From positions 1-40,279 of IMG/VR virus record IMGVR_UViG_3300028653_000032: 40,279 nucleotides of DNA, one strand, 5' to 3'. Each line of letters starts with the position of its first letter. The first letter of the stretch is position 1. The position numbers were made by a program, and so were the translations under genes. Below the pieces are notes generated by a model that saw only the letters and a list, made by a program, of their open reading frames with translations, did not search any database and had not been told where the DNA came from. This stretch comes from a virus. Positions 15,751 to 31,358 of the stretch are shown piece after piece.

Positions 15751-15753
15751 ACA

Positions 15754-15909
15754 ATGCTTATAATATATGTTATATCAACAATAATTATCATTATCCTAAC
15801 AACAATAGTTGTTATGCTTGTAGATATAGCATATATTAAAATTTCAAATAAGCCATTGACAATGTCGCAAAAAAGAAATATAATTATCAGGAAGCAGGGC
15901 AGAAGTTAA
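15754..15909 (+). CDS. 51-residue single-span membrane protein
   Basis: ATG 15754 opens four bases after the previous stop. The N-terminal half is one long membrane span (VISTIIIIILTTIVVMLVDI), followed by a basic tail (SQKRNIIIRKQGRS). No good ribosome site is visible, so it probably relies on coupling to the upstream gene. The function is unknown. Confidence 0.55.
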   Translation: MLIIYVISTIIIIILTTIVVMLVDIAYIKISNKPLTMSQKRNIIIRKQGRS

Positions 15910-15931
15910 AGGGGAAACAGGAGGTACTTAA

Positions 15932-16279: not shown

Positions 16280-16302
16280 GCGTTAATAAAATAAAATAAA
16301 AA

Positions 16303-16339
16303 GCACCTATCATTAAACCCCTTGTGATAGGTGTTTTTT
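16303..16339 (+). terminator. Intrinsic terminator
   Basis: CACCTATCA (16304-16312) pairs with TGATAGGTG (16325-16333), followed by six T (16334-16339). It ends the first early transcript only five bases before the next promoter's -35 box. Confidence 0.88.
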
Positions 16340-16344
16340 ATTGC

Positions 16345-16373
16345 TTGACATTATAAAAACAATTTGGTAAAAT
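16345..16373 (+). promoter_or_regulatory. Near-consensus sigma70-type promoter (second early)
   Basis: TTGACA at 16345-16350, 17-base spacer, TAAAAT at 16368-16373. The start would be near 16380. It drives the block that begins with the 16523 gene and queC, unless stopped in the leader at 16443-16497. Confidence 0.85.
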
Positions 16374-16395
16374 ATATACATAATAATAAAACTTC

Positions 16396-16497
16396 GTTAT
16401 ACAGGAAACAATGCTTAACAACTTGTATCAACTTAAAAAATCAAGACATTGCAAACAGCACTTTTTAAAATGCTGCTTTTTTGATGTCTTTTTTTAT
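16396..16497 (+). terminator. Leader hairpin plus nested terminator: candidate attenuator or short leader RNA
   Basis: After the promoter the leader can fold GTTATACA (16396-16403) with TGTATCAAC (16424-16432, one bulge). A nested structure follows: AAGACAT (16443-16449) with ATGTCTT (16484-16490), enclosing CAGCA (16456-16460) with TGCTG (16471-16475). A T-run follows the last stem. A terminator between promoter and first gene suggests attenuation, antitermination or a small RNA of about 110 bases. I found no match to a preQ1 riboswitch core. Confidence 0.6.
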
Positions 16498-16522
16498 TTT
16501 TAAATAACAAGGGAGGATTTGT

Positions 16523-19965: not shown

Positions 19966-20065
19966 AACAGTTCTTTAATGGCACGGTGGCGTAGTAGCCT
20001 GACAGGTAACTGGCGTAATTTTTAGGCGGGTCCGATTCCCTTAATGCGTGAGTCCTAAAACTGTT
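19966..20065 (+). ncRNA. Candidate structured noncoding RNA, tRNA-like closing geometry
   Basis: AACAGTT (19966-19972) pairs perfectly with AACTGTT (20059-20065), closing about 100 bases. Directly inside the 3' strand, TTAGG (20022-20026) pairs with CCTAA (20054-20058), so the two helices abut as acceptor and T stems do. GGGTCCGATTCCC (20028-20040) forms a T-arm-like loop. TGGCGTA occurs twice (19987 and 20011). No anticodon arm can be drawn, so it is not a normal tRNA. The remaining bases to 20140 hold the ribosome site of the next gene and nothing else I can identify. Confidence 0.5.
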
Positions 20066-20140
20066 ACAATACTAATTGTCCGTGTCTTTAAAGATGTTTA
20101 GAAAAAAAGCAAATAAAAAACAAACTGTAAGGAGCTTAAA

Positions 20141-22226: not shown

Positions 22227-22578
22227 AGATATTGTAACATTAAGCGTTAAACATCACTTTGACGCTGCACATTTTTTAAGGGACTACAAGGGAGCTTGTT
22301 CGAATTTGCATGGCCATAGATGGACAGTCAATATTTCAGTTATTGGAAAAGTAGACCCAAAAACTGGCATGCTAATTGATTTTAAAAAAGTAAAAGAAGT
22401 GATTGATGTGCTTGACCATAAATGTCTCAACGAAATTATTCCAGAAAATCCTACGGCAGAAAATATTGCAAAGAGAATATTGTTTGCAGTAAAAGATTTA
22501 ATACCAGGAACTCAGCAGGGTTTTGTTAGAGTAAAACTGTTTGAAACACCTGAAACTTCAGTGGAGGTACAATGTTAA
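22219..22578 (+). CDS. queD: 6-carboxy-5,6,7,8-tetrahydropterin synthase QueD
   Basis: The 119-residue protein starts at TTG 22219 with AGGGAGG five bases upstream. It makes 6-carboxytetrahydropterin from dihydroneopterin triphosphate. Zinc ligands are His18 (FDAAHF) and His31 and His33 (HGH). The catalytic Cys27 is in CSNLHGH, the CxxxHGH form that marks QueD rather than classic PTPS. LDHKCLN and ETPETSVEV supply the catalytic His and Glu. It overlaps genes on both sides. Confidence 0.95.
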   Translation: MDKDIVTLSVKHHFDAAHFLRDYKGACSNLHGHRWTVNISVIGKVDPKTGMLIDFKKVKEVIDVLDHKCLNEIIPENPTAENIAKRILFAVKDLIPGTQQGFVRVKLFETPETSVEVQC

Positions 22579-23183
22579 AAATTCAAGAAATTTTTGTAAG
22601 CGTACAGGGAGAGGGATTAAATATAGGTATTCCAATGACATTTATTCGTTTGCATGGATGCTCTATGGGTTGTAATTTTTGTGATACAAAAGAGACATGG
22701 AAAAGTGATATTTACAAAGAAATGCCAATACATGAAATAATGACCGCAGTTCTTGCACACAAAGTGCGCTGGGCTTGCATAACAGGCGGAGAACCAATGG
22801 AACAAGATATAATGGAGCTTATCTTAGCATTAAAGGCCGCAGGAATAGCTGTAGCTTTAGAAACCAACGGCTCTATTTTTAATCAAGAAATAATAGAAGA
22901 ATGCAATTGGGTAGCAGTAAGTCCAAAAGGAGTAATTCCTGAACAATGGAAAGATTTTAGCTATATCGATGAAATGAAAATTGTTATTCAAAAAGGAAAC
23001 GTGAACGAATTTATTCAAGTCTGGAGCTTTTTAAGAGAAAACGAAGTTTTGCTTTCAACTCCATTATTTTTACAGCCTTGCAATAATGATAAAGATATAG
23101 CTTCTCGTATTTGCGATTTTGTAATTGGAAATCCGTGGTTTCGTTTAGGTTATCAGATGCACAAAAGCTATCAATTAAGATAA
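22572..23183 (+). CDS. queE: 7-carboxy-7-deazaguanine synthase QueE (radical SAM)
   Basis: The 203-residue protein has the radical-SAM site CSMGCNFC (Cys30, 34, 37; CxxxCxxC), VQGEGLNIG at the N-terminus, ITGGEPMEQ and ALETNGS. It rearranges carboxytetrahydropterin to 7-carboxy-7-deazaguanine. TGGAGG is at 22561-22566 within queD, and the ATG lies in the last codons of queD, so translation is coupled. Confidence 0.95.
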   Translation: MLKIQEIFVSVQGEGLNIGIPMTFIRLHGCSMGCNFCDTKETWKSDIYKEMPIHEIMTAVLAHKVRWACITGGEPMEQDIMELILALKAAGIAVALETNGSIFNQEIIEECNWVAVSPKGVIPEQWKDFSYIDEMKIVIQKGNVNEFIQVWSFLRENEVLLSTPLFLQPCNNDKDIASRICDFVIGNPWFRLGYQMHKSYQLR

Positions 23184-23192
23184 GGAGAAATA

Positions 23193-24041
23193 ATGGAAAT
23201 TAAAAATCTTACATTTGAAGATGTTCGTTTGCAGATTATAAAAAAGGGCCTGCTGGATATAGTAAAAAACAAAAAGATATATGGAGTTCCCCGCGGCGGT
23301 TCTTGTGTAGCATTAATGCTGCACAGTGCAACACTTGTAAATATTCCAGAAGAAGCAGATATTATTGTTGATGATATAATTGATTCTGGAAAAACAAGAG
23401 ATAAATATTTTCTTTTATATCCCCATATTCCTTTTTATTCTTTATATGAAAAATCAAGCGCATGGTTACATTTTCCTTGGGAGCATAATGCTGAATGCGA
23501 CATACAAGATACAGTCATAAGACAACTTGAGTTTTTAGGAGAAAATGCCGCGAGAGAAGGCCTTGTAGAAACACCAAGCAGAGTTGTTAGAAGTTGGGAA
23601 AAACTATATGGAGGATATAACGAGAAGCCTGAAGAAATACTTTCAAAAACATTTACACAGCAATATGACGAAGTTGTTCTTTTGAAAGATATTGAATTGT
23701 ATTCGACCTGCGAGCATCATATGCTTCCATTTTTTGGAAAATGTCATATTGCTTATTTGCCTAATGATAAAATTGTAGGTATTTCAAAACTGGCCAGATT
23801 GATGGAATGTTTTGCAAGACGCCTGCAAATACAGGAAAGGCTTGTAAATCAAATTGCCGATGCTTTACAGGAACATCTTAAACCAAAAGGTGTTGCTGTG
23901 ATTGTAGAAGCACAGCATTTCTGTATGACTAGCAGGGGTGTTGAAAAACAGCGCAGCAAAATGGTTACATCTGCCTTAAGAGGTGTATTTCTTGAAAATT
24001 CAACTGCCAGAAAAGAATTACTTGATTTAATAAAATCATAG
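23193..24041 (+). CDS. folE: Phosphoribosyltransferase-like domain fused to GTP cyclohydrolase I (FolE)
   Basis: The 282-residue protein has two domains. Residues about 1-100 look like a compact purine phosphoribosyltransferase: IYGVPRGGSC (pyrophosphate loop), IIVDDIIDSGKTRD (PRPP loop, about 57-70) and LHFPWE, as in Gpt-type enzymes. Residues about 101-282 are GTP cyclohydrolase I with LVETPSRV, STCEHHMLPF and AQHFCMTSRG (zinc Cys, His, Cys) and QRSKMVTSA. FolE makes dihydroneopterin triphosphate, the QueD substrate. The first domain may feed guanine nucleotide to FolE or act on a deazapurine; this is inference. Confidence 0.9.
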   Translation: MEIKNLTFEDVRLQIIKKGLLDIVKNKKIYGVPRGGSCVALMLHSATLVNIPEEADIIVDDIIDSGKTRDKYFLLYPHIPFYSLYEKSSAWLHFPWEHNAECDIQDTVIRQLEFLGENAAREGLVETPSRVVRSWEKLYGGYNEKPEEILSKTFTQQYDEVVLLKDIELYSTCEHHMLPFFGKCHIAYLPNDKIVGISKLARLMECFARRLQIQERLVNQIADALQEHLKPKGVAVIVEAQHFCMTSRGVEKQRSKMVTSALRGVFLENSTARKELLDLIKS

Positions 24042-26805: not shown

Positions 26806-27626
26806 ATGCAAAATAAAATACTTGAACAAAATTATATGGAAGTATTTAAAAAGTGTAACGAAATGGAAGCAGAATTATTTAAAAGAGAGGCTTCCCCTAT
26901 CCAACAGGCCTGCCGACACTTGACGACTACCTGGGCGGATGTCACAAAAGAGAAATTATAACTGTTTGCGGAGCTTCCTCGATAGGAAAGACAGCACTAA
27001 TGACTCAACTAGGAGTAGAGCTTGCCAGAAAAGGCGCAAAGGTTATTGAGTTCCAGCTCGAAATGGACCCAGAACACATTGTTGACAGAATAATAAGCTA
27101 TGAGACAGGAATAGAAAACTACAAGATCCAATATGCGAAGGCAGAGGACAAAGATCTTTCAAGGATAGGACAATCTCTTGGAGAAAACGATTTTTACAAA
27201 ATACCTTTTTTTATTTGTGATTCTCCAAATGTGTCACTGCCGGGCATAAAAGAAGTAGTAAGACAGTATACTCCTGACTTCATAATAGTCGACTATATAC
27301 AAATTATGAGATTCAATGAAGGAGAAAACCAAGAACGAAAAATAGCTCATTTTATGACAAGCTTAAAAAGTTTTGTTAGAGAACGGAACATAGGGGCAAT
27401 CATTGGATCTCAGGTAACTGCTCAAATGGATGGCAGTTGGGATGCTAAGGGCGCAAAAGCGATAAAAGAAACATCAGACCGAATGATAATCTTGAATGTT
27501 AAAAAAAAGGATAGAGAAGACAAAATATGGCCAATGGAGTTGATCATTGACAAGAATCGACATGGCCCGGTAGGAACAATGACAATAAAGTTTTACAGAC
27601 AAAAACTCACATTTTCAGAAACGTAA
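26806..27626 (+). pseudogene. DnaB-like replicative helicase (RecA-fold) split by an apparent frameshift
   Basis: ATG 26806, with AAAAGG upstream, opens a frame encoding MQNKILEQNYMEVFKK… that stops at 26959. The helicase core is in the -1 frame, open only from 26883: YPTGLPTLDDYLGG, Walker A GASSIGKT (26970-26993), FQLEMD, Walker B DFIIVDYIQI, IGAIIGSQV and the C-terminal GPVGTMTIKFYRQ. The only ATG in that frame (27000) is past Walker A, so it cannot be the true start. One added base in AAAA (26881-26884) or CCCC (26894-26897) would restore a protein of about 273 residues. Sequencing error, real mutation and recoding are all possible. Confidence 0.8.
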
Positions 27627-27640
27627 CAAATAATCTCTTT

Positions 27641-27778
27641 CAGGTGTTAGTGGCGGAATTATCGCTCGGTCACGCAAGAATAGCGGTTACAATCGTGAGA
27701 CAGAATTGTCAAAAGCTATCGCCGGATATGGTGTTTTGAATCATTTGCAGGTATTCTAGAAATCCTGCCTAACACTTG
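27641..27778 (+). ncRNA. Candidate structured noncoding RNA of about 138 bases
   Basis: CAGGTGTTAG (27641-27650) pairs with CTAACACTTG (27769-27778) over 10 bp with one G-U. GCAGG (27747-27751) pairs with CCTGC (27764-27768) and directly abuts the outer helix, as T and acceptor stems do in tRNA. Other possible stems are GGCG 27652 with CGCC 27720, ATAGC 27680 with GCTAT 27715, TCACG 27670 with CGTGA 27694, and GACA/TGTC around 27703. Not all can coexist. It lies between the helicase and the 27813 gene and has no long ORF. The T-loop is 12 bases, so it is not a normal tRNA. Confidence 0.55.
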
Positions 27779-27812
27779 GAAGACGTTTTAAAATAAAGAG
27801 AGAGGAGAAATA

Positions 27813-28393
<581 letters not shown>

Positions 28394-28397
<4 letters not shown>

Positions 28398-30847: not shown

Positions 30848-30863
30848 ACATGGTATAGATTAA

Positions 30864-30958
30864 CTCTAGACTTGCCTGACGTTTTCCATGACTTTTTGAG
30901 TTTTTAAAAATAGCACAACAAAAAGCATTGAAAAACGTGTAAGAATTAACGTCTAGAG
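30864..30958. repeat. Nested inverted repeats in the noncoding region
   Basis: CTCTAGAC (30864-30871) is mirrored by GTCTAGAG (30951-30958), and inside it ACGTTTT (30879-30885) is mirrored by AAAACGT (30932-30938). Together they can form a long cruciform or RNA hairpin next to the iterons. No ORF of note covers it. Confidence 0.6.
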
Positions 30959-30979
30959 CAAGTATAGATACAGTCTAAC

Positions 30980-31032
30980 CCTATAAGAGTAGATAAGAGT
31001 AGATAAGAGTAGAGTAGATAAGAGTATACTCT
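30980..31032. repeat. Iterons matching those of the initiator gene; possible second origin or control site
   Basis: Copies of AGAGTAGATA lie at 30986-30995 and 30996-31005, then AGAGTAG 31006-31012 and AGTAGATA 31013-31020. The block ends in the 12-base palindrome AGAGTATACTCT (31021-31032). Bases 30980-31004 are identical to 21161-21185. It lies in the 511-base gene-free stretch 30848-31358, which also holds nested inverted repeats, a possible Cys-rich ORF and the late promoter. Confidence 0.65.
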
Positions 31033-31096
31033 AAACTCCAAAAAACGGTAAAACAATAAAAAGGGAGAGAAAATAAAGAAACAGAAAGGAGTAAGA

Positions 31097-31225
31097 TGTG
31101 TTTTAGCAAAGAATAAAAAATGTAAAAATAAAGACTGCGGACATTTTCTTTCTAAACATATTTATGATTTTCGTTGTAACAATTCTTTATGCGCGACAAG
31201 AGGGATGTATTGCTTCTGTAAATAA
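31097..31225 (+). other. Possible Cys-rich mini-protein without a usable start
   Basis: The frame reads CVLAKNKKCKNKDCGHF … RCNNSLC … YCFCK and stops at 31223-31225. The eight Cys are spaced as in small zinc proteins. AAGGAG at 31086-31091 is followed by ATG 31096 in another frame, which stops after six codons. A one-base change would join the two. It may be a decayed or misread gene. Confidence 0.3.
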
Positions 31226-31239
31226 TTTTTAAAAAACAC

Positions 31240-31268
31240 TTGACAAAACAAAATTAATTTGTTATAGT
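31240..31268 (+). promoter_or_regulatory. Near-consensus sigma70-type promoter (late block)
   Basis: TTGACA at 31240-31245, 17-base spacer, TATAGT at 31263-31268. It lies upstream of the terminase genes and would start the long late transcript near 31275, just before the leader hairpin. Confidence 0.85.
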
Positions 31269-31278
31269 TTTTATAAAT

Positions 31279-31339
31279 AACCCTAACACTTCTCAAAGCT
31301 ATGACGTACAATAGACTTTTTGACGTGTTGGGGTTTTTT
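31279..31339 (+). terminator. Leader terminator-like nested hairpin before the terminase genes
   Basis: AACCCTAACAC (31279-31289) pairs with GTGTTGGGGTT (31325-31335, one G-U). The inner stem AAAGCTAT (31295-31302) pairs with ATAG-A-CTTT (31311-31319). Six T follow (31334-31339). It begins within about five bases of the predicted start of transcription, so it may act as an attenuator or antitermination target. Confidence 0.7.
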
Positions 31340-31358
31340 ATTTTAAACAAGGAAACCA

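Follow-up and report, generated by a model that had tools for sequence, protein, structure and literature searches.

The window, i.e. the whole stretch of DNA that was analysed, comprises the 40,279 bases of an IMG/VR virus record from an unclassified phage with an otherwise compact genome of plus-strand genes. A 186-nt intergenic gap, the third longest in the gene list, extends from the stop codon of a dnaB-like helicase gene (27626) to the ATG of an Imm5-like gene (27813), and most of it is occupied by a folded RNA of 138 nt, termed R2 here (Table 1). The longest gap in the list (511 nt, 30848-31358) lies just upstream of the gene preceding the terminase, and further gaps are found at 16280-16522 and 15751-15931.

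Table 1. Coordinates of R2, its structural elements and the flanking genes in the window
Feature	Positions	Strand	Basis or remark
dnaB-like helicase gene, upstream of R2	26806-27626	+	PF03796, E 1.8e-28 for 27000-27626
R2, manA-like folded RNA with tRNA outline	27641-27778	+	cmscan RF01745 and own covariance model
R2 closing (acceptor-like) helix, 5' arm CAGGTGTTAG	27641-27650	+	ten standard pairs
R2 conserved 5' block AGTGGCGGAATTA	27649-27661	+	manA version AGTGACTGAATAA; 10/13 letters agree
R2 hairpin CGCC-GGATAT-GGTG, positioned like a variable arm	27720-27733	+	pair probabilities 0.68-0.78
R2 conserved 3' block TTTGnnGGTATnnnAGnAATCCnnCCT, with T-arm-like hairpin GCAGG/CCTGC and 12-nt loop	27744-27770	+	
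R2 closing helix, 3' arm CTAACACTTG	27769-27778	+	pairs with 27641-27650
Imm5-like / DUF6931-like gene, Ala-rich, downstream of R2	27813-28397	+	PF21805, 22.3 bits; PF22011, 20.6 bits

The dnaB-like gene is apparently frameshifted near 26880. Its helicase frame (KRGFPYPTGLPTLDDYLGG...) possesses a stop but no ATG, GTG or TTG before 27000, and the ATG at 26806 opens the neighbouring frame; an indel, an assembly error or recoding may be responsible. The initial annotation had placed R2 beside an immunity-type gene and a DNA-modification block. The former description holds only at the level of an Imm5-like product with sub-threshold scores for both PF21805 (cut-off 25) and PF22011. As to the latter, the genes for DNA modification, a radical SAM gene and a GTP cyclohydrolase I gene, end ~3.6 kb upstream of R2. 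These two genes lie at 22572-24041, which we take to be consistent with a 7-deazaguanine DNA-modification block.

Predicted Structure of R2 and Comparison with tRNA

All ten positions of the R2 closing helix are paired, including one G-U, and the 5-bp hairpin GCAGG/CCTGC (27747-27751/27764-27768) directly abuts it. Predicted pairing probabilities amount to 0.93-1.0 for nine of the ten closing-helix pairs, 0.60 for the innermost pair and 0.98-0.99 for the hairpin; the 10-bp helix adjoining GCAGG/CCTGC proposed in the initial annotation is borne out in every pair. The folding energy of -37.6 kcal/mol corresponds to a modest z-score of -1.70 relative to shuffled sequences, 10 of 200 of which fold equally well; stability by itself is therefore an insufficient case. 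A near-optimal alternative fold with several small hairpins reaches -36.8 kcal/mol, indicating that the middle of R2 has no single settled predicted structure.

With class II tRNAs (RF00005), R2 shares an acceptor-like helix stacked on a T-arm-like stem, a UG following the 5' strand and a variable-arm-like hairpin. It differs from tRNA in its 12-nt loop and in having no recognisable anticodon arm and no CCA. ARAGORN reported no tRNA or tmRNA in the window, nor in R2 at relaxed thresholds, and the Rfam tRNA model gave no match on R2 even at E<=10. The start GTGTTAG-TG-GCGG, noted earlier as tRNA-like, is present, but it is no specific sign of a tRNA: the 14-mer of the TG-GCGG start occurs at 121 places in 120 viral loci, only 3 of which overlap a relaxed ARAGORN tRNA call.

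R2 had also been likened to an RNA at 19966-20066. Both occupy an intergenic gap and both close with a long helix, but 366 of 1000 shuffles attained the local alignment score of the pair, 309 of 1000 attained the global score, and the RNA at 19966 folds no better than shuffles (z +0.05). A single family of the two was dropped on these grounds, and their common closing geometry is no family signal. The RNA at 19966 has no RF01745 match at E<=10. It contains a T-loop-like GGGTCCGATTCCC, and ARAGORN with the threshold set to 85% reports a weak tRNA-Val (gac) spanning about 19970-20050; the Rfam tRNA model finds none there. This RNA is possibly a decayed tRNA.

Similarity of R2 to manA RNAs

At Rfam gathering thresholds, no match was found anywhere in the window. 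The best Rfam match of R2 is manA (RF01745), which cmscan aligned to 27616-27778 with 25.9 bits. The E-value is 7.4e-5 against all 4227 families for a 401-nt stretch, equivalent to about 0.007 when rescaled by our own arithmetic to the whole window, and 1.8e-6 when RF01745 by itself is run over the whole record, in which R2 is the sole match at E<=10. As the score lies far under the gathering score of 55.2, R2 is not a member by Rfam's own criterion and is therefore treated as a candidate distant relative. The aligned letters fall into a 5' block, AGTGnCnGAATnA, and a 3' block, TTTGnnGGTATn(2-3)AGnAATCCnnCCT, which rank among the most conserved stretches of marine manA. With the same model, chance matches were found in none of 50 IMG/VR records at E<=10 and in 0/369, 0/398 and 0/395 genomes at E<=0.001, the latter three sets under stricter filters and with at most six candidates scored per genome. 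Among eleven manA records used as positive controls, ten were detected (141.7-186.7 bits), and the eleventh carries only a cut manA 3' end.

An independent model was built from a collection of at least 120 manA-bearing stretches gathered by sequence pattern, of which 17 marine manA remained after an 88% similarity filter (alignment A1, with the window not included). With filters off, this model ranks R2 top in the window (27643-27776, 18.9 bits, E 3.8e-4), the second-best match having an E-value of 0.17; R2 was not detected by the same model with default filters, nor by nhmmer with marine manA profiles. A two-block score, framed after R2 had been seen, gives 29/32 for R2; other loci (1.2 Mb) reach at most 27 and shuffled sequences (4 Mb) at most 24. 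Globally, R2 aligns to the 17 marine manA better than 500 of 500 shuffles, and its middle is no closer to them than shuffles are (107/500; 64/1000 for the first interior part).

When R2 is added to A1 (alignment A2, not fitted to structure, the structure itself having been picked with both R2 and manA known), closing helix and hairpin are paired in 180/180 cells. Six double changes occur in these helices, four of them contributed by R2, namely two GC-to-UA exchanges in the closing helix and, within the hairpin, one UA-to-CG and one UA-to-AU exchange. Pairing is thus kept although 4 of the 10 helix pairs of R2 differ from marine manA on both sides. The exact stem GCAGG/CCTGC of R2 recurs in L264, in the 3' end of a genuine manA that is truncated by the contig border.

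Sequence searches of viral data yielded no homologue bridging R2 and marine manA; one such search led to two loci of marine manA and to a coding region unrelated to it. Several candidate relatives were rejected: L125 and L126 represent the same region twice, which looks coding by eye and has no Rfam match, the eight matches L135-L142 include no manA match, and L262 and L263 are unrelated sequence. Blast matches of the R2 3' part to Listeria phages cover a partial block only, with the unannotated record L127 reading as coding by eye, and a match in Bacillus phage SPR is located within an annotated CDS. No close relatives of the phage itself were found by TerL among the viral contigs searched, and the nearest named-phage TerL, that of Aggregatibacter phage S1249, is at 52%, leaving no sister phage at hand for a covariation analysis. 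The records of three DnaB relatives (L002-L004, 26-28% identity) contain no manA match.

R2 and manA have in common a closing helix followed, on its 3' strand, by a stacked 5-bp hairpin with the loop UAU-nn(n)-AGnAAU (GGUAU..AGnAAUCC with its flanking letters), as well as a similar overall order of elements. The 5' block AGUGnCnGAAUnA (AGUGACUGAAUAA in manA) corresponds in part, with 10 of 13 letters in agreement. The 3' block of R2 carries all 19 fixed manA letters, its loop being one base longer than in marine manA; the counterpart of the closing helix in marine manA is GGGAG/CUCCC. R2 measures 138 nt versus about 190 nt, and it is devoid of the manA 5' hairpin and of the three-hairpin central junction, including the GGUGGUG and ACCA loops. 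Its phage is not placed among marine cyanophages by our analysis. Unlike marine manA, R2 has no strong promoter of its own at the RNA start: no sigma-70 promoter with >=10/12 letters was found just upstream, and a 9/12 match (CTCACA-17-AATAAT, 27606-27634) is spaced as in manA but remains within background. The earlier idea that R2 belongs to a family of phage RNAs resembling tRNA in outline is plausible in view of the manA match and of the published cloverleaf link described below, with manA and not the RNA at 19966 as the partner, and with R2 failing the tests for tRNA itself.

Genomic Arrangement of Marine manA RNAs

Weinberg et al. 2010 locate manA in possible 5' UTRs and treat it alongside riboswitch candidates (PMC2864571), a view repeated in passages of PMC9964418 and PMC10665884, and Rfam types the family (RF01745) as Cis-reg. 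Its listing as a riboswitch candidate dates back to 2010, and the passages on manA in that literature name no ligand. The CMCompare paper reports a cloverleaf link of low score that connects manA with tRNA and states, citing Rfam, that manA frequently adjoins tRNAs (PMC3692125); the adjacency is repeated in PMC10832533. A description of manA as a free tRNA-like RNA was not found in the literature searched.

The genomic arrangement of marine manA is solid. A sigma-70 promoter positioned to start transcription at the RNA (>=10/12 letters, with the -10 element ending 23-35 nt before AGTG, where the 5' hairpin starts) is present in 87 of 92 distinct upstream flanks, versus an average of 2.25 in shuffles. 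The tRNA count covers 97 manA records; it excludes the named phages L131-L134 and roughly one in five of the retrieved manA loci, these being mainly fragments of longer contigs, and retains L264 despite its cut manA. In these 97 records, Infernal detected 15 tRNA genes over the cut-off in 12 records. Nine of the 15, spread over 8 records, adjoin manA directly, where roughly 0.04 would be expected by chance; the other 89 records have no tRNA beside manA. In seven cases a tRNA-Gly (named by relaxed ARAGORN) begins 3-6 nt past the manA closing helix, although these genes are highly similar in sequence and may come from few lineages, and in one case a tRNA-Thr ends at the manA 5' hairpin. L168 has manA between two tRNAs, and L157, judged by eye, shows the order tRNA-Thr, manA, terminator and a new promoter-like site. 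An apparent absence of the tRNA link, suggested by default ARAGORN (a tRNA or tmRNA within 1 kb in 2 of 125 pattern matches, one of them a tmRNA), was overturned by these Infernal results.

Downstream of marine manA, the genes vary. The next ORF lies on the opposite strand at 13 of 105 places among the matches listed (15 of 120 listed places, having no downstream ORF, are left out) and in 16 of 93 in a second count. Terminators follow manA in 19 of 97 distinct flanks versus 1.3 in shuffles when loops of up to 45 nt are allowed, and short-loop terminators in 10 of 98 flanks versus 0.4; where the next ORF runs in the opposite direction, none of the 16 flanks contained one. Just 3' of manA, L129, L144, L147, L151, L172, L175 and L177 share the recurring element GACCTAAGATGCAACTC....GAGT.GGGCAGA.GGTCTT, in many cases together with a T-run. 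It corresponds to no Rfam family at gathering score and may be a terminator or a structured RNA of another kind. In L166 (311-404(-)), a divergent manA of 141.7 bits is accompanied by a PhotoRC-II RNA and a tRNA.

Given the tRNA-manA-tRNA and tRNA-manA-terminator units and the opposite-strand next ORFs, marine manA units cannot all lead protein genes and instead resemble small operons of non-coding RNAs. If RNase P cut at the tRNA that follows, manA would retain a 3' tail like that of a tRNA. Promoters and tRNA abutment fit a free-standing tRNA-like RNA better than the published 5'-UTR switch.

Possible Explanations for R2

We consider R2 to be a divergent manA-type tRNA-like RNA, with a probability of about one half. 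R2 would then descend with manA from a common ancestor as a minimal, highly divergent relative that keeps the outer tRNA-like shell, i.e. the closing helix stacked on the T-arm-like hairpin with the family loop, plus the 5' UG-nC-nGAAU block, the manA 5' hairpin and multi-hairpin centre having been lost or replaced. Having no identifiable anticodon, R2 is probably not a decoder. By analogy with marine manA, it most likely acts in trans as a free RNA imitating the acceptor/T-arm half of a tRNA, and host tRNA-handling machinery (RNase P, tRNase Z, modification or decay enzymes) would recognise it. This functional picture is an analogy because R2 has no promoter match above 9/12 letters and no tRNA neighbour.

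Alternatively, R2 could be a cis-acting, riboswitch-like leader controlling translation of the Imm5-like gene. Both are encoded on one strand, the ATG of the gene follows R2 after 34 nt and is preceded by a good Shine-Dalgarno sequence, and in the fold of 27621-27830 AUAAUC (27630-27635) pairs with GAUUAU (27815-27820) over the start-codon end, in keeping with the Cis-reg typing of manA and its portrayal as a 5'-UTR motif in the relevant part of PMC2864571. However, this six-base flank pairing is A+T-rich and could easily arise by chance, and the marine loci speak against a leader with their opposite-strand next ORFs, their varied downstream genes and the units in L168 and L157. Overall, we regard a leader as unlikely, with roughly one chance in a few.

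Somewhat doubtful too, and placed slightly lower, is the view that R2 has no relation to manA and resembles it by chance, being a structured spacer RNA or an mRNA hairpin, e.g. a stabiliser or a processing site between the dnaB-like and Imm5-like transcripts. The weak fold z-score, the sub-gathering RF01745 score, the unconserved middle and the negative nhmmer search would all suit such a spacer. A chance resemblance is at odds with the E-values of RF01745 and of our own model, with the empirical nulls and the two-block score, and with the pairing kept through four double changes. A decayed or insertion-bearing tRNA-Leu gene is very improbable. The R2 segment TGGCGGAATT resembles what we take to be the 5' part of a class II tRNA-Leu, and TCAAAA and a variable-arm-like hairpin can be read by eye in the middle; yet the 12-nt loop is that of manA and not a tRNA T-loop, and a degenerate tRNA-Leu assembled from TGGCGGAATT, TCAAAA and the GCAGG/CCTGC arm was dropped on the Rfam and relaxed ARAGORN results.

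Conclusions

For the family as a whole, we tentatively propose, at rather less than even odds, that manA RNAs are phage-borne, non-decoding tRNA mimics with their own promoters, cut out by host tRNA-processing enzymes, and not riboswitches; R2 would be a stripped-down version in another kind of phage, showing that the acceptor/T-arm half is indispensable. The marine manA data lead to a proposal that differs from the riboswitch listing and is directly testable, namely that manA is a tRNA-like RNA released by processing. Should R2 truly be related to manA, it would define the minimal core of the family and extend it to another kind of phage.
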